NCBI RefSeq assembly: GCF_022760175.1
Contig: NZ_CP094326.1
Span: 2,468,804 to 2,532,803 of the forward strand
Direction of reading: 5' to 3'
Length of the DNA: 64,000 bases
From: Zhouia spongiae
GTDB lineage: Bacteria > Bacteroidota > Bacteroidia > Flavobacteriales > Flavobacteriaceae
The notes under the pieces are model-generated. The model did no database searches. It saw only the letters and a program-made list of their open reading frames with translations, and was not told where the DNA came from. Made by a program: the position numbers and the translations under genes. The first letter of the stretch is position 1; each line of letters begins with the position of its first letter. Of this stretch, positions 13,394 to 19,371 are shown one piece after another.

Positions 13394-14815
13394 ATGCTAA
13401 AAGATTACACCAAAGAATTTGCATATAATTTAAAACTCGCCTCTCCGGTGATGTTAGGAATGCTAGGGCATACCTTTGTTGCCTTTGCAGATAATATTAT
13501 GGTAGGTCAATTGGGAACAGCCGAGTTGGCAGCCGTTTCACTAGGAAACAGTTTCATTTTTGTGGCAATGTCTTTGGGGATTGGTTTCTCCACCGCGATT
13601 ACTCCTTTAATTGCGGAGGCCGATGCAGCCGGAAATATACAGCAAGGAAAGTCTTCTTTTAAACACGGGTTAGTGTTGTGTACTACGTTGGGAGTGCTAT
13701 TATTTCTGTTATTGCTGCCGGCAAAACCGTTGATGTATTTAATGGATCAGCCGGCAGAAGTGGTAGAACTTGCCATGCCTTATCTTGATTTAGTAGCTTT
13801 TTCGTTGGTGCCTCTTGTAATTTTTCAGGCGTTAAAGCAATTTTCAGATGGTTTGTCACAGACAAAATATCCCATGTATGCTACTTTGGTCGCTAATATT
13901 GTGAATATATCCCTTAACTACCTGTTGATTTTTGGTCATTTTGGTTTTCCGGAGTTAGGGATTATAGGAGCTGCGATCGGAACCCTCGTCTCAAGAGCGA
14001 TAATGGTGTTGTATCTCTGGTGGTTGCTGAAAAGGAACCAAAAAAGCAGCCCTTATATCTCGAACCTCAATTTTAGGATATTACATAAAGGTACTATTAA
14101 AAAGATACTTAACCTGGGATTACCTTCATCTATGCAGATGTTATTTGAGGTAGCTGTTTTTACAGCGGCAGTCTGGGTAAGCGGTGTATTGGGGAAAAAT
14201 CCTCAGGCAGCAAATCAAATAGCCCTTAACTTATCGAGTATGACCTACATGGTTGCAACGGGCTTAAGTGTTGCCTCGATGATCCGGGTAGGAAATCAAA
14301 AAGGATTAAAAAGGTTCAGGGACCTGAGAAGGATAGCCTATTCGATCTTTTTACTGACCTTAATAGTGGATATTATTTTTGCATCTGGATTTATGTTGCT
14401 GCGAGACTGGTTGCCTACCATATACCTCGATGAAAAAGACCTGGTGAATCAAGCAGATAATTTTGAAGTGATCTCAACAGCTTCAAGCTTGTTGTTGATA
14501 GCAGCTTTTTTTCAGATATCAGACGGAATTCAAATTGCTGTCTTAGGTGCGTTGAGAGGGTTGCAGGACGTGAAGATACCGACTGCAATTACATTTGTGG
14601 CTTACTGGATAATCGGGTTCCCTATTTCTTATTACCTCGGACTTAAAACTGATCTGGGAGGAATGGGAATCTGGATCGGATTATTGGCGGGACTCACCAC
14701 GGCAGCCATATTTTTGTATATTAGATTTAATTATCTCACTAAAAAGCTGATTGTGGAAAATGAGATAAGTACCAATCAAATAAACCCGGTTTCAGCACCA
14801 TCGATTGATAGATGA
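13394..14815 (+). CDS. MATE family efflux transporter
   Basis: A 473-residue inner-membrane protein with about 12 hydrophobic segments in two homologous halves, the MATE fold. Family features include LASPVMLGMLGHTFVAFADN with D after the first helix, GQLGTAELAAVSLGNSF, and in the second half LGLPSSMQMLFEVAVF and ANQIALNLSSMTYM. Such transporters export cationic or amphipathic compounds using Na+ or H+ gradients; the substrate is not predictable. Probably monocistronic, with the small acidic protein gene 27 bp downstream possibly co-transcribed. Confidence 0.93.
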   Translation: MLKDYTKEFAYNLKLASPVMLGMLGHTFVAFADNIMVGQLGTAELAAVSLGNSFIFVAMSLGIGFSTAITPLIAEADAAGNIQQGKSSFKHGLVLCTTLGVLLFLLLLPAKPLMYLMDQPAEVVELAMPYLDLVAFSLVPLVIFQALKQFSDGLSQTKYPMYATLVANIVNISLNYLLIFGHFGFPELGIIGAAIGTLVSRAIMVLYLWWLLKRNQKSSPYISNLNFRILHKGTIKKILNLGLPSSMQMLFEVAVFTAAVWVSGVLGKNPQAANQIALNLSSMTYMVATGLSVASMIRVGNQKGLKRFRDLRRIAYSIFLLTLIVDIIFASGFMLLRDWLPTIYLDEKDLVNQADNFEVISTASSLLLIAAFFQISDGIQIAVLGALRGLQDVKIPTAITFVAYWIIGFPISYYLGLKTDLGGMGIWIGLLAGLTTAAIFLYIRFNYLTKKLIVENEISTNQINPVSAPSIDR

Positions 14816-14841
14816 TTTTAAATTTTTTAAATTGATATTTT

Positions 14842-15069
14842 ATGGAATTACCAAGGTTTTTACTGGGAGACAATACTGATCATCCTGACGATATATTTAT
14901 TATCCATACGGAGTACCCCAGATTTATAATTAATCTTGTGAATGATGAGGTGGAATGGCTTGAAGAGTTCAGTAGAGAAGATGAAAGTGATTTACAGTCA
15001 GAAATGGGAAGTTTGATAGAGGCGGCCTCTGAGTTCTATGACCGCGAAGTAAGTCGATACGAAGAATAA
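14842..15069 (+). CDS. Small acidic protein of unknown function
   Basis: A 75-residue soluble acidic protein: MELPRFLLGDNTDHPDDIF, then YPRFIINLVNDEVEWLEEF and an acidic helical C-terminus. There is no cysteine, signal peptide or membrane segment. Codon use resembles its neighbours, and it is flanked 27 bp and 33 bp away by genes on the same strand, so it is very likely real. Short proteins with this look are common conserved hypotheticals in flavobacteria. I cannot assign a function. Confidence 0.75.
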   Translation: MELPRFLLGDNTDHPDDIFIIHTEYPRFIINLVNDEVEWLEEFSREDESDLQSEMGSLIEAASEFYDREVSRYEE

Positions 15070-15102
15070 TTCACAGATCAACGAACCAACCAGCCGGACA
15101 CT

Positions 15103-15675
15103 ATGCTTGATAAACTTATTCATTTAGACCAGCAGTTATTCTTATATCTTAATAATTTAGGCTCCCCGCAATGGGATGGTTTCTGGATGTTTATAACTGA
15201 TAAATGGTCTTCCATACCACTTTATATAGCTTTGCTGGGATTATGTGTTTGGCGTTTTGGCTGGAAAAAGACCTTTTTGGTTCTGGGGTCAGTTGCTTTG
15301 ATGATTGCTGCAACGGATCAGTTAGCAAACTTATTTAAATATGGTTTTGAACGGCTAAGACCCTGCCATGATGCTGTTGTATATGATTATATGCGATTAG
15401 TGAAAACATCATGTGGAGGAAAGTTTGGCTATTTTTCTGCCCACGCGGCAAATTCTTTTGCGGTAGCGACCTTTTTCAGTATATTATTTCGTAATTCTTT
15501 AAAATGGATTCCGGTTTTACTACTGGTATGGGCATTGGTTGTTGCCTATAGCAGGATTTATATAGGTGTGCATTACCCGCTTGATGTCATCACGGGCATT
15601 AGTATAGGGTTGCTAACGGGATGGTTTTTTCAAGTTGTTTTTCAAAAAGTAAGCAATAAACTTAACTTTTCTTAA
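15103..15675 (+). CDS. PAP2-superfamily phosphatase (undecaprenyl-pyrophosphatase or lipid phosphatase)
   Basis: A 190-residue integral membrane protein with about five helices and the full acid-phosphatase signature: K-x6-R-P (K79 to R86-P87, KYGFERLRP), S-A-H (SAHAAN, 112-117, catalytic H114) and S-R-x5-H-x3-D (S150-R151, H157, D161 in SRIYIGVHYPLDV). It may recycle undecaprenyl pyrophosphate (BacA-unrelated PgpB/YbjG type) or dephosphorylate lipid A or phosphatidylglycerophosphate; these cannot be told apart here. Its last 14 bases overlap the stop of the convergent membrane-protein gene. Confidence 0.9.
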   Translation: MLDKLIHLDQQLFLYLNNLGSPQWDGFWMFITDKWSSIPLYIALLGLCVWRFGWKKTFLVLGSVALMIAATDQLANLFKYGFERLRPCHDAVVYDYMRLVKTSCGGKFGYFSAHAANSFAVATFFSILFRNSLKWIPVLLLVWALVVAYSRIYIGVHYPLDVITGISIGLLTGWFFQVVFQKVSNKLNFS

Positions 15676-16330
15676 ATAGAATATTATTTAGCGGGTTCAG
15701 GAAGATAAGCAAAAAGATAACTCCAAAAGCTAATTCATAAACTTCCCACTTTCTACTGGCAGGTATTACATTAACCAGAATTGTACAAGTAATAAATGCG
15801 ATAGTATGATGCCATTTAACAACAGGGACAGCAAACTTTTTAGTTAGTTTAACTACCCATTCTTTTTTTCTGTATAGAAGCGGAACGATTAACAGATAGG
15901 TAACCATGGCTATCATTAAAAGTTGACTAAAAACAATTTTATTGACTTTTTTTCCGCCAACTACAAGGTTGTGTAAATTAGTTTCTTTCTGAGCGTTATT
16001 TTGGAGAAAGAAATCACTCGATTCAATTCCGAAAATTCTTTGACCCCATGAAACTTCCTCACCGGCTCCGAAGAAGAATAACAATGCAAAAATAGCAACA
16101 CCGACTTTCCATAAATGAGGTTTAGAGCCTCCAAGGGTAATTAATCTGTAGATGCATAATATGCTAATTGATAATAACATGATCGCTGTACCATATTCAA
16201 CGGTACCGTCTTCTGCTGCAAAAACATTATTAAAATAGTCTGGGTCGGTAAATCCAAAATACAACGAAAGTATAAAGACAAAAATTAAAAATATATAGCC
16301 GATTTTATCTGTTCTTGTTAATTGATCCAT
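15662..16330 (-). CDS. Multi-pass membrane protein of unknown function with conserved acidic/His motifs
   Basis: A 222-residue protein with about six hydrophobic segments (10-28, 47-65, 73-89, 133-151, 168-187, 195-215). Unusual for a membrane protein, it has dense polar motifs at helix ends: AAEDGTVEYGTA (38-49), GAGEEVSWGQRIFG (88-101) and ETNLHNL (116-122). Such E/H/N/Q clusters are typical of membrane hydrolases or metal sites, but I do not recognise the family and this is inference. It converges with the PAP2 gene (14-base overlap) and sits 53 bp downstream of the GT39 gene on the same strand, so it may belong to the GT operon. Confidence 0.7.
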   Translation of the reverse strand: MDQLTRTDKIGYIFLIFVFILSLYFGFTDPDYFNNVFAAEDGTVEYGTAIMLLSISILCIYRLITLGGSKPHLWKVGVAIFALLFFFGAGEEVSWGQRIFGIESSDFFLQNNAQKETNLHNLVVGGKKVNKIVFSQLLMIAMVTYLLIVPLLYRKKEWVVKLTKKFAVPVVKWHHTIAFITCTILVNVIPASRKWEVYELAFGVIFLLIFLNPLNNILFKKS

Positions 16331-16383: not shown

Positions 16384-18039
16384 CTATTCTCTTTCTTTCT
16401 TAGATGAAAGAATATAGTACTTGGCAACCAACCTTTTTTTATGACTTTTTTTATCAGGTGACGCAGTATAGTTAACATCGTATTTAGTAATGTGTTTTAT
16501 ATGAAAAGAGGAAGAATAGAAGTTTTTAAAAGCCTCTTCCTGACCGAGGGTCACCAATACCCCAAAATCTTTATCTGATGGGGTTTTGATATGTCCATGA
16601 ATGTCCAGTCGGGGAACTTCTTTTCCGAATAACCAAACCATTTCCGGTGCAAGCTCTCCGAATGAATAAATATTAAAGTTCTGATAGTCAGATGAAGCAG
16701 CAAGTGTATCGACATTCTTAAAAGCAGTATTACTGTTAAAAGTCTTAGACAGCGGAAAACCAAAAGTCATTACGGTCATTATAAACCCGACGGTTAATAA
16801 AAACACATTAGATAGGTTTTTACGTTTTAACCCTTTAAGCATGTATATGCCGATAATTAGCAGGATGATGGCAGTAACTATAAAGTAAGCCCAAAGAGTA
16901 CCGGTAATTTTATCTTTTAGAAAGAAATAGCCTCCAACAGGAAAAATGATTGCGATAGTGGCTATCAGACCAAAGTTAAAATATACAGGGATAGTTTCTT
17001 TTTTGTCTTTCAGCTCTTTAAAATGGCTGATAAGGTATTCTATATAAAAAGCAGTGTTCATCGCCATTGGTATAAGTACCGGCAATAAATATCTCGACTT
17101 TTTCTCGGGGATTACAGAAAGAAGGATAACAGCACTGATAGTCCACCAGAAACTAAACTTGTATGCTCTTTTATCACTCACTTTGTTTTTTAAATAAGGG
17201 TACAGCAATGCTATAAAAGCAGGAACTGTCCAGATACCGCTTTGGGTAAAGAAACTCCAATAATAGTAAAAAGGCCTTACGTTATAACTGCTCCAGTTTG
17301 CAGTTTCTTCTGTGGTTATAGCAAGAAAAGCTTCGGGGTCGGCCAAACGGACGTATATAAACCATGAGACGCCCAGTCCTAATCCAAGGAACAGAAAAAT
17401 AAAAAACGGTACTGCTTTCTTTTTAAAACCTTCAAATTTGTATGTAATACCATAGGCAATGATAAAAGGCAACCATAATGCATAAAGAGAAACCGGACCC
17501 TTGCTTAAAAAGGAAGCACCGAAAAAGAGAGCGGCAAGAAGCGTATTTGTCCATAGTTTCTCTTTGTTTTGAAAAATCTGGAATAGGTGATAAACAGCGG
17601 CAACCATAAAACCGTGGGTATAAATATCCCATTGTCCGTTTCTGCCCGAAAAAATAATATAAAAGGAAGTGGCCAGCATTAAACTAGCAATAAAACTTAA
17701 CTTTTTATTTTGATGTATTTTGATGCCTAACCTGTAAAACATCCAGATTAAGAATGACGCTATTAAGGCCGCAGACAATCTTAATCCGAACAGGCTTTTC
17801 ATGCCGAAAATGCTACCGGTGATTGCTGTCATCCAGGTCGGTAACGGAGGTTTCTCATAACGGGGCAGACCATTCATGGTTGTTAAAAACCATTCATTGT
17901 TTTGTATGATTTCACGGGCAGTGATAAAATTTCTGGCTTCCATGATATTAATGTACAACGTTCCCAGATGAGAGAAGAAGATAGATGCACATACTAATAA
18001 AATAAGAATCGGATAGTTATTTTTCAGCGCGTTGAGCAT
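16384..18039 (-). CDS. GT39/ArnT-like lipid-linked sugar:acceptor glycosyltransferase
   Basis: A 551-residue membrane protein with about 12 helices and a soluble C-terminal part (about 440-551). MEARNFITAREII (33-45) places the catalytic-type acidic residue in the first periplasmic loop, and EKPPLPTWMTA (62-72) is the GT39/ArnT second-loop signature; PEKKSRYLLPVLIP later is also typical. Such enzymes transfer a sugar from undecaprenyl (or dolichyl) phosphate to lipid A, protein or glycan on the periplasmic side. It overlaps the double-LAB_N gene by 23 bases and follows a GT2 gene, giving a donor synthesis / possible flipping / transfer operon. Acceptor unknown. Confidence 0.88.
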   Translation of the reverse strand: MLNALKNNYPILILLVCASIFFSHLGTLYINIMEARNFITAREIIQNNEWFLTTMNGLPRYEKPPLPTWMTAITGSIFGMKSLFGLRLSAALIASFLIWMFYRLGIKIHQNKKLSFIASLMLATSFYIIFSGRNGQWDIYTHGFMVAAVYHLFQIFQNKEKLWTNTLLAALFFGASFLSKGPVSLYALWLPFIIAYGITYKFEGFKKKAVPFFIFLFLGLGLGVSWFIYVRLADPEAFLAITTEETANWSSYNVRPFYYYWSFFTQSGIWTVPAFIALLYPYLKNKVSDKRAYKFSFWWTISAVILLSVIPEKKSRYLLPVLIPMAMNTAFYIEYLISHFKELKDKKETIPVYFNFGLIATIAIIFPVGGYFFLKDKITGTLWAYFIVTAIILLIIGIYMLKGLKRKNLSNVFLLTVGFIMTVMTFGFPLSKTFNSNTAFKNVDTLAASSDYQNFNIYSFGELAPEMVWLFGKEVPRLDIHGHIKTPSDKDFGVLVTLGQEEAFKNFYSSSFHIKHITKYDVNYTASPDKKSHKKRLVAKYYILSSKKERE

Positions 18040-18655
18040 GTTCTTTTTTTAAGATGAATAAGTTTCGAGTATAAATAAAAGTTCCTGCCAGGTGGCCAAC
18101 TAACAATACGGGGTCTTTCCTTAAAATTGCGTAGGTGAGGATTAGCAGCCCCCCCGTCAAACTTAATATCCAAAAGCCTTTAGGGAGGGTAGATTTTTTT
18201 CGTCTTTCGCTATAGATCCATTGATAGATAAATCGGAACATAAAAACAACCTGGGCAATACTTCCTAGTAATAATAGCCATAAAGGAATATTGTCATTTT
18301 TAAAAAAATCGTTTAAATCGTATGCGTTGTTATTATATCCGTAAAGAACAACCAGCAAAGGGAAAAACCATAGAAAAATACGGAATGGTTTTGGAAATCG
18401 TATCCATTCTCCCTGCAATTGCATATTTCTGATATAAATGAAATAAGTAAGAACTTGTCCCAGAATGATAGCAAAATCATCACGAAGCCAACCATAAACA
18501 AAAAGTAAGAATGAGGCCAACAGACTTAATTGCCAGAATAATTTTGGGGTTAGGATTTTTTGGTGTTTTTCAGAAAGAATCCATTGCAGAATCATTCTGC
18601 CGGAAAAAAGCATTTGCGCAACGAAACCTATGGAGTATATTACCCAATCTTCCAT
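18017..18655 (-). CDS. Membrane protein with two LAB_N (lipid-A-disaccharide synthase N-terminal) domains
   Basis: A 212-residue membrane protein made of two copies of the LAB_N domain (PF07578). Copy 1 (about 10-80) reads GFVAQMLFSGRMILQW, LTPKLFWQLSL, GQVLTYFIYIRN; copy 2 (about 131-201) reads GSIAQVVFMFRFIYQW, LPKGFWILSL, GHLAGTFIYTRN. A hydrophobic helix joins them (92-107). In LpxB the domain is an N-terminal appendage of unknown role; here it stands alone and is duplicated. As I recall, LAB_N is grouped with the MtN3/SWEET three-helix transporters, so two copies would give a SWEET-like unit. The 1-base overlap with the GT2 stop and the 23-base overlap with GT39 indicate tight translational coupling. 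Confidence 0.88.
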   Translation of the reverse strand: MEDWVIYSIGFVAQMLFSGRMILQWILSEKHQKILTPKLFWQLSLLASFLLFVYGWLRDDFAIILGQVLTYFIYIRNMQLQGEWIRFPKPFRIFLWFFPLLVVLYGYNNNAYDLNDFFKNDNIPLWLLLLGSIAQVVFMFRFIYQWIYSERRKKSTLPKGFWILSLTGGLLILTYAILRKDPVLLVGHLAGTFIYTRNLFILKKEHAQRAEK

Positions 18656-19371
18656 TACCCTTGTTTAGCAACGCGATAGTTTATATACTTTTTCTTCATC
18701 CACAAATAGGCAAAACAATCCATCAATGGTCCTAACAAGCGGTTCCATAGGCCGAATTTAGCAGTTCCGGCTATTCTCGGAAAGTGCCTTACCGGAACTT
18801 GTTTCACTTTGCCATTTTGCAAAAGTATCATTGCCGGTAAAAACCTATGGAGTCCTTTAAACATAGGAATGCGTTTAGCAAAATCAGTTTTAATCACTTT
18901 TAACGGACAACCTGTATCGTCCATGCCGTCTGAAGTGAATGCTCGTCGGATACTGTTGGCTATGGTTGAAGACATGTTTTTTACGAAAGAATCTTTTCTG
19001 TCTGCTCTGACGCCTGTAACGAGATCGAATTCACCAATTTCTGCCAGTAATAAATCGAAATCCTCGGGAGTTGTTTGTAGATCGGAATCAATATACCCTA
19101 CCAATGCAGTATCAGTATAGTCAAATCCAGCTTTAATAGCTGCACTCAGCCCCCTGTTTTCTTCAAATAAGATATATGAAAAATCAGTATTGCGCTTGCA
19201 AATTGATTCGATTAATTGTTGACTTTTATCTTTGGAGCCGTCATTAACAAAAAGAATTTTAGTCTTTTTTGCTGACTTTGCCATGTATTCGGAAAGTTCT
19301 TTTTCTACTCGTTCCAGATTGTCTTCTTCATTGTACACCGGAACAATAATAGTAAATTCGTAACTCATCAA
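18655..19371 (-). CDS. GT2 polyprenyl-phosphate sugar transferase (DPM1/ArnC-like)
   Basis: A 238-residue enzyme of the dolichol-phosphate mannosyltransferase type: FTIIVPVYNEEDNLERV at the start, FVNDGSKDKS, GLSAAIKAGFDYT, and GYIDSDLQTTPEDF with the catalytic DxD. It lacks the two C-terminal membrane helices of ArnC/GtrB, so it is the soluble, membrane-associated form. It would load a sugar onto undecaprenyl phosphate at the cytoplasmic face. First gene of a three-gene operon with the double-LAB_N protein and the GT39 transferase; a perfect -7 box lies at 19389-19396. Confidence 0.9.
   Translation of the reverse strand: MMSYEFTIIVPVYNEEDNLERVEKELSEYMAKSAKKTKILFVNDGSKDKSQQLIESICKRNTDFSYILFEENRGLSAAIKAGFDYTDTALVGYIDSDLQTTPEDFDLLLAEIGEFDLVTGVRADRKDSFVKNMSSTIANSIRRAFTSDGMDDTGCPLKVIKTDFAKRIPMFKGLHRFLPAMILLQNGKVKQVPVRHFPRIAGTAKFGLWNRLLGPLMDCFAYLWMKKKYINYRVAKQG

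Follow-up and report, generated by a model that had tools for sequence, protein, structure and literature searches.

The ArnC-ArnE/F-ArnT and GtrB-GtrA-Gtr systems have in common a GT2 synthase, a membrane protein and a GT-C transferase. According to PMC12826051, arnE, arnF and gtrA are among the genes associated with undecaprenyl-phosphate sequestration, and arnC and gtrB are classed as independent of it. In the Mesorhizobium system for lipid A galacturonic acid, RgtE-RgtF-LpxE, the rgtE gene of M. loti lies upstream of rgtF and is clustered with lpxE, according to the available parts of PMC5644692 and PMC7663294. The latter source, in the same part, lists RL1470 as rgtE and gives rgtE and rgtF homologues for Caulobacter vibrioides, and RL1470 is described as important for root colonisation in the part of PMC11103875 available. 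GacI-GacJ consists of a GT2 and a separate small three-helix membrane protein, with GacK as a separate Wzx-type flippase (PMC8035078, available part), and LgmD of Bordetella is stated to be non-essential in the portion of text at hand. Here, a related three-gene cassette was analysed in a 64,000-nucleotide stretch of the Zhouia spongiae genome (RefSeq GCF_022760175.1, contig NZ_CP094326.1, positions 2,468,804 to 2,532,803; hereafter the window), in which a protein made of two LAB_N domains lies between a GT2 and a GT39 glycosyltransferase. The initial annotation had read these genes as a complete lipid-linked sugar transfer pathway with the LAB_N protein as its flippase. The LAB_N protein is the best candidate for a translocase in the cassette.

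The three genes lie on the reverse strand in the order GT2 (18655-19371), LAB_N (18017-18655) and GT39 (16384-18039). Coordinates and sequence confirm the predicted overlaps, which amount to 1 base (TAATG) between GT2 and LAB_N and 23 bases between LAB_N and GT39. The GT2 open reading frame (ORF) was called at a TTG directly followed by an ATG (start codons within 19366-19371), and the ATG at 19368 is the likelier true start. Its product, a putative polyprenyl-phosphate-sugar synthase, matches Glycos_transf_2 (3.9e-26) and contains no hydrophobic segment (peak 0.91), as expected from its earlier description as soluble; the closest NCBIfam model is ArnC, with a score far below the cut-off (97.5 vs 529 bits, 7.2e-28). 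The 551-residue GT39 protein, an ArnT-like GT-C transferase, exceeds the Pfam cut-off for the PMT family (3.4e-7), and its closest NCBIfam model is ArnT, again far below the cut-off (62.6 vs 567 bits, 2.7e-17). Judged by these matches, the GT-C slot of a three-component system is filled, and so is the GT2 slot, the latter at the family level only. The middle protein (212 residues) indeed consists of two LAB_N domains (PF07578, 8.1e-60; 199.3 bits vs a cut-off of 26.7): domain 1 with helices 1-3 (18422-18631; 99.6 bits, G000:C1:2487225-2487434), a linker helix predicted by AlphaFold2 at residues 89-108 (18332-18391), and domain 2 with helices 5-7 (18059-18268; 111.1 bits, G000:C1:2486862-2487071). 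An origin as a piece of LpxB was considered and rejected, as only positions 9-221 of the 610-position NCBIfam LpxB model NF002173 match and the catalytic domain was not found.

The distribution of the cassette was followed in 100 genomes of the same family, the window's genome included, in which LAB_N was found at 47 places and in 46 genomes. Among the 30 best of these places, which were fetched and include the window, the trio is intact, contiguous and on one strand in every case. A GT2 above 345 bits is present in the same 46 genomes, and a GT39 above 400 bits in 41, every one of them LAB_N-positive; three weaker GT2s (301, 242 and 235 bits) belong to LAB_N-negative genomes with no GT39 match. 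In a further family (f8, that of genome G175), LAB_N is present in 26 of 118 genomes. There, LAB_N-LAB_N-GT39 forms one open frame of 748-784 residues after GT2 in 12 of the 26, and the fusion in G175 itself was additionally seen by Pfam. All 12 fusions belong to one family and may reflect a single fusion event.

Outside the own family, 80 named loci were compared, the best 80 of at least 582 relatives retrieved with single-domain seeds, a sample in which other LAB_N subfamilies and tandem forms are under-represented; the hidden Markov models (HMMs) for GT2, GT39 and the neighbouring genes were derived from the loci themselves. Titles of these loci include Proteobacteria, Fusobacteria, Halanaerobium, Paenibacillus, Acidobacteria and Rokubacteria. 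A GT2 gene lies upstream of LAB_N on the same strand and within 300 bp in 71 of the 80 loci, a GT39 gene lies within 300 bp in 47, and both partners do so in 41. The gene order thus recurs across genomes. Because the trio is contiguous in 30/30 own-family loci and recurs in other phyla, it is not a chance arrangement but a real, widespread cassette of the three-component type. The tandem architecture, on the other hand, is a variant seen in the Bacteroidota loci, and one LAB_N domain is the usual form in the sampled loci, a count that the single-domain seeds bias; the one-domain proteins have 81-119 residues (median 94, n = 73 of 87 loci, the remainder being without a start or a match under the rule used).

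LAB_N also matched 18 plasmid records, the best named matches being from Phocaeicola and Hymenobacter, and eight of the records were inspected. GT2, LAB_N and GT39 are consecutive in four of the eight (Ilyobacter, Azospirillum, Pelagovum and Thalassospira); the Pelagovum GT39 is annotated as hypothetical and was recognised by HMM. The Paracoccus plasmid has the order LAB_N, GT39, GT2, the Cetobacterium plasmid a split form of the cassette, the Paenibacillus plasmid GT2 and LAB_N with no GT39 nearby, and the Hymenobacter plasmid LAB_N with no GT2 nearby. In the plasmid of Hymenobacter sp. HDW8 (L062, 5968-6636), a single TAA divides a tandem LAB_N into two annotated one-domain genes, which may be a natural split, decay or a sequencing error. 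In the inspected plasmid records, the LAB_N genes carry the annotation "lipid-A-disaccharide synthase N-terminal domain protein".

LAB_N genes with no GT2 or GT39 detected nearby were also observed (L079, L094, L097 and L198-L202, with L094 and L097 from Rokubacteria). They would fit a role away from the donor lipid, for instance in transporting a sugar or UDP-sugar or in scaffolding of the envelope, with LAB_N linked to the transferases by regulation only. SWEET relatives move free sugars, which is in line with the same idea. We regard it as improbable nonetheless, given the tight overlaps, the strict co-occurrence with GT2 and GT39, and the fusion to GT39.

The initial annotation had noted that no EmrE-like or GtrA-like gene is present at the locus, and this holds well beyond the window. 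HMMs for GtrA, SMR and LPG_synthase_TM matched none of 102 LAB_N loci; the SMR model was built from two sequences and the GtrA model from five pieces, and the latter recovered three GtrA proteins outside its seed. The LAB_N protein itself gave no match to PF04138 (GtrA) or PF00893 (SMR) at E values up to 0.1. GtrA was not found in the own genome and was rejected as the flippase of the cassette: of 21 other LAB_N genomes, 12 encode GtrA at some position, but none of the 102 loci contains it. The MATE gene near the cassette (13394-14815) was likewise rejected, because in the own family it borders the site even in loci that lack LAB_N: it is present irrespective of the cassette in 14 of 23 own-phylum loci compared. 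Outside the own family, the MATE HMM matches only L159 and L110 among the named loci. As a side observation, the MATE gene is a remote flippase candidate. No separate flippase was thus found to accompany the cassette regularly.

The LAB_N fold was examined by structure prediction and by profile comparison. The AlphaFold2 model of the tandem protein (predicted local distance difference test, pLDDT, 88.2) has three helices, a linker helix and three further helices, a predicted arrangement in agreement with the SWEET architecture proposed earlier, and the single-domain model (pLDDT 94.9) has three long helices and a short N-terminal one. In searches of the Protein Data Bank (PDB), the window protein alone matched four sequences up to E 1 (best 0.014), all SemiSWEET. 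A profile of 40 tandem proteins gave six matches up to E 5, all SemiSWEET-type: 4qnd (1.9e-4; labelled a chemical transport protein, which we take to be a SemiSWEET), 9kon (0.0012), 4qnc (0.0015) and three more, five of the six being named SemiSWEET with a best value of 0.0012. The one-domain profile was weaker, with five of eight matches SemiSWEET-type (best 0.046) and three unrelated. The window protein is barely over the cut-off of MtN3_slv (24.4 vs 23.7 bits). Alignment with hhalign to PQ-loop-like proteins gave 93.9 and 96.0%; three of four scanned proteins of this kind exceed the PQ-loop cut-off, and as they were picked by the LAB_N model the result is supporting rather than independent. 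In the VIA structure comparison, the tandem model matched SWEET 5xpd (Z 7.6) and SemiSWEET 4x5m (Z 6.8; 2.6 A over 88 residues, model range 4-212), and VIA describes Z values of this size as common for helical proteins. With the single-domain model, SemiSWEET was outside the 50 matches shown, which excludes nothing.

The PQ doublet is the commonest motif of the PQ-loop family, which has no absolutely conserved residue (PMC3281891, available part). In helix 1 of LAB_N the Q of this doublet is invariant, and P was found in none of 80 tandem halves and none of 63 single-domain sequences. Helix 1 carries the invariant residues Q28, R34, Q38, S42 and E43 (L122 numbering, 63 single-domain sequences). 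The patterns used to select the named loci inflate the conservation of FxxRFxxQW and YAxxxDPVF, and in the 40 tandem proteins, which were retrieved independently of these patterns, the same five helix-1 positions do not vary. On sequence grounds LAB_N is a remote relative of SemiSWEET, but because it lacks the P of this doublet and its structural matches are less clean it is not filed as a SWEET. The membership in the MtN3/SWEET family claimed at the outset is therefore retained only as a remote relation.

Other membrane proteins were found beside related GT2s. At the site of the cassette, beside PAP2, six relatives that have no LAB_N (L210-L214 and L217) carry a cassette of the same make-up, with a GT2, a protein of 289-305 residues and, on the opposite strand, a distantly related GT39; here, the GT2 has two predicted transmembrane (TM) helices. 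The other border of the site is MeaB in L210, L212, L214 and L217, as in the window, and an aldose epimerase in L211, whereas in L213 only the PAP2 side is common with the window. The 289-305-residue protein is LPG_synthase_TM (PF03706), over the cut-off in 7/7 scanned (L220 included), which is the family of the MprF flippase domain. Across the 100 genomes there are 17 weaker GT2 matches (107-140 bits); two TM helices are predicted in 12 of the 13 that were read, and none in that of L215. PF03706 adjoins 11 of the 17, and none of those 11 genomes has LAB_N, so that genomes with GT2-linked PF03706 and those with LAB_N are disjoint (11 vs 46 of 100; Fisher P 7.7e-4, kinship ignored). PF03706 as such was rejected as cassette-specific, as it matches in 99 of the 100 genomes, a longer paralogue being near-universal and present in the own genome; the short copies beside the weaker GT2s are the exception. 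Eight GtrA loci were fetched as well, and four have a clearly matching GT2 of the same HMM family (E 7e-18 or better), a fifth being weak and partial; the four GT2s, when measured, carry a long hydrophobic tail.

A few relatives have still other arrangements. L218 has GT2 and GT39 with neither middle protein, and L207-L209 have GT2 only. The GT2 of L209 (1-3520; genome G066) is of the cassette type but has no LAB_N; it stands ahead of a DAGK/YegS-like gene and a gene for a 648-residue membrane protein, and is possibly a reused GT2. In two relatives (L221, 4643-5167; L222, 4698-5288), the gene ahead of a TM-tailed GT2 encodes a protein of 174-196 residues for which four TM helices are predicted, maybe another partner for the GT2 slot.

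Taken together, we think it probable, though by no means certain, that LAB_N is a translocase of polyprenyl-phosphate sugar, with docking as a possible second role. In this scheme, the cytoplasmic GT2 would transfer a sugar from a UDP-sugar onto polyprenyl phosphate. LAB_N, with its two SemiSWEET-like three-helix halves and linker helix, would then carry the polyprenyl-phosphate sugar to the periplasmic leaflet and hand it to GT39, which would attach the sugar to an envelope acceptor. A single-domain LAB_N would need to act as a dimer, and LAB_N probably docks the tail-less GT2 as well. Of the pathway put forward in the initial annotation, the cassette, the slot and the lack of a separate flippase at the locus stand, and neither of the two outcomes that it had named as refuting was observed. 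The chemistry, the flipping, the sugar and the acceptor are inferred, LAB_N holding the flippase slot by position only, and docking as in GacJ fits part of the data. A literature search covering part of the matching papers found no experiment on LAB_N as a flippase.

Several observations weigh against a translocase. Five of the 46 LAB_N genomes in the own family have no GT39 above 400 bits (G045, G059, G088, G089 and G091); GT2 and LAB_N are still adjacent and GT39 is absent in four of them, which were fetched, and the contig of G089 ends at LAB_N. In family f8, LAB_N is solitary in six of the 26 LAB_N genomes, where neither a GT2 nor a GT39 was detected up to 1.5 kb away. The own genome has two SMR genes and one LPG_synthase_TM (PF03706) gene elsewhere, which could flip, and in the six LAB_N-less relatives it is the whole cassette that differs at the shared site, not the middle gene alone. 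The Caulobacter vibrioides control genome has no LAB_N match, though rgtE and rgtF homologues are listed for it. As to the fold, MtN3_slv scores below the cut-off in the six other LAB_N proteins that were scanned. Chains of SemiSWEET and SWEET appear in the Foldseek output only at E above 0.3, the best VIA match of the tandem model is PnuC (Z 11.4, 156 aligned, 4.9 A, 9% identity), and the structural matches are weak to moderate overall. LAB_N is moreover part of NCBIfam model NF002173 for LpxB, a cytoplasmic enzyme, where a flippase is hard to place. Finally, a TM tail is missing from every one of the 90 GT2 ORFs that adjoin LAB_N, which come from 89 of the 102 loci and include two fragments.

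This last finding bears most directly on the main rival explanation, in which LAB_N does no more than dock the soluble GT2 to the membrane or activate it, and another protein flips. GacJ, with its three helices, has been proposed to play this part for GacI, and DPM2/DPM3 for DPM1. Homologous GT2s have neighbours from three membrane-protein families, and whether the GT2 has a tail follows the type of partner: the GtrA-linked enzymes (n = 4) and those of the PF03706 cassettes have one, and those beside LAB_N do not. Nothing else argues as strongly for a shared slot as this pattern, which is at the same time the main reason why docking stays alive as an explanation. GT2 is also the closest partner of LAB_N in the named loci, and the inclusion of LAB_N in the LpxB model fits a dock. 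The rival is kept because GacI and GacJ form a comparable pair alongside a flippase that is a protein of its own (PMC8035078, in the part available). Yet the fusion partner in 12 genomes is GT39, which is itself already polytopic, and in four of the 80 named loci (L096, L098, L102 and L165) GT39 is present although LAB_N has no GT2 next to it on its own strand; L096, L098 and L102 each have a GT2 some 1 kb away on the opposite strand. No other flippase family searched for recurs at LAB_N loci, and the invariant Q, R, Q, S and E of helix 1 exceed the needs of an anchor, although this is an argument only. Docking alone is thus considered unlikely, if to be taken seriously.

The fusion to GT39 would also fit a utilisation factor similar to MPDU1/Lec35, which presents or orients the polyprenyl-phosphate sugar for GT39 without moving it across. 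MPDU1 is a PQ-loop protein required for all known mammalian dolichol-phosphate-monosaccharide reactions, and its function was unknown in 2012 (PMC3281891, available part). With a pure presenter, however, no gene at the locus would be a candidate for flipping, and we give this explanation little credence compared with translocation. If LAB_N is a translocase, it could tentatively be seen as the bacterial counterpart of MPDU1/Lec35, with three-helix units of the SWEET superfamily moving polyprenyl-phosphate monosaccharides in bacteria and perhaps in the endoplasmic reticulum, a proposal that we put forward as a doubtful one. Were it true, lipid-linked sugar would become a substrate class of the SWEET superfamily. 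With a candidate of about 90 residues, present in several phyla, beside an rgtE/rgtF-like gene order in Mesorhizobium and fused to its transferase in one family, the question can be put to the test on a small protein. A misleading name would be corrected as well, namely the synthase annotation of the plasmid genes, as the window protein holds no synthase part.

The neighbouring genes give some indication of the sugar. A gene of the NAD-dependent epimerase family (at least 378 bits to that of L078) is present in 39 of the 100 family genomes, 35 of them LAB_N-positive, and lies 88-192 bp from GT2 in 30 genomes. Among the 102 loci, the epimerase HMM matches 21 and the UDP-glucose dehydrogenase HMM nine, and in the Paenibacillus loci L066, L121 and L157 dehydrogenase, epimerase, GT2 and LAB_N are consecutive. 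These neighbours suggest a hexuronic acid such as galacturonic acid, but none of the neighbour epimerases reaches an equivalog cut-off and the own genome has no epimerase match at 378 bits or more, so for the window's cassette such a sugar would be a tentative candidate only. The acceptor is probably lipid A or lipopolysaccharide in Gram-negative hosts, which cannot apply to the Paenibacillus loci. PAP2 HMM matches were found in 26 of the 102 loci; seven are the own-family flank, and the others may, by analogy with rhizobia, be lipid A phosphatase partners.

Around the cassette in the window, a 222-residue ORF (15662-16330, reverse strand) follows 3' of GT39 as an optional fourth gene. It has no Pfam match and scores above 250 bits in nine of the 100 family genomes, own included, all of them LAB_N-positive and with the ORF adjoining GT39 by coordinates; one weaker match of 142 bits is in a LAB_N-negative genome. 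Beyond it, the MATE gene, a 75-residue ORF and PAP2 (13394-15675, forward strand) form a conserved flank of the site in the locus comparison, irrespective of the cassette present. In L077 (3217-5175), two divergent genes similar to undecaprenyl phosphate translocases (PF04018) adjoin a GT2-LAB_N-GT39 cassette.

Compared with known systems, the cassette resembles Arn and Gtr in composition; ArnC and ArnT are the nearest models, and GtrA-linked GT2s match the same HMM as the cassette GT2s. It differs from them in that the middle protein is LAB_N instead of GtrA or SMR and in that GT2 has no membrane tail. The likeness to RgtE-RgtF-LpxE is seen in L122, where GT2, LAB_N, GT39 and PAP2 on one strand read as rgtE-LAB_N-rgtF-lpxE; the match to the M. 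loti locus is one of order and rough lengths only, and LAB_N goes unmentioned in those parts of the rgt descriptions that were available. Caulobacter vibrioides matches GtrA, and its GT2 might carry a TM tail or have a GtrA partner. With SemiSWEET, SWEET and PQ-loop proteins including MPDU1, LAB_N shares remote profile similarity and an architecture of one or two units with a linker helix, the one-domain and tandem forms being likened to SemiSWEET and SWEET, respectively. In contrast to SWEET, LAB_N has no P in the PQ doublet, has a long invariant polar set, is linked to glycosyltransferases and gives only a moderate structural match. PnuC, a vitamin B3 transporter, is the best structural match of the tandem model, but no PnuC family is among its Pfam matches. 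The PF03706 proteins occupy the same site and adjoin GT2 in a GT2/GT39 cassette, but belong to a different family with seven TM helices, their GT2 is predicted to be TM-tailed, and GT39 is distant and on the opposite strand. GacI-GacJ shares with the cassette a GT2 and a separate small membrane protein. The system is thus a variant of the known three-component kind, with LAB_N in the middle position.

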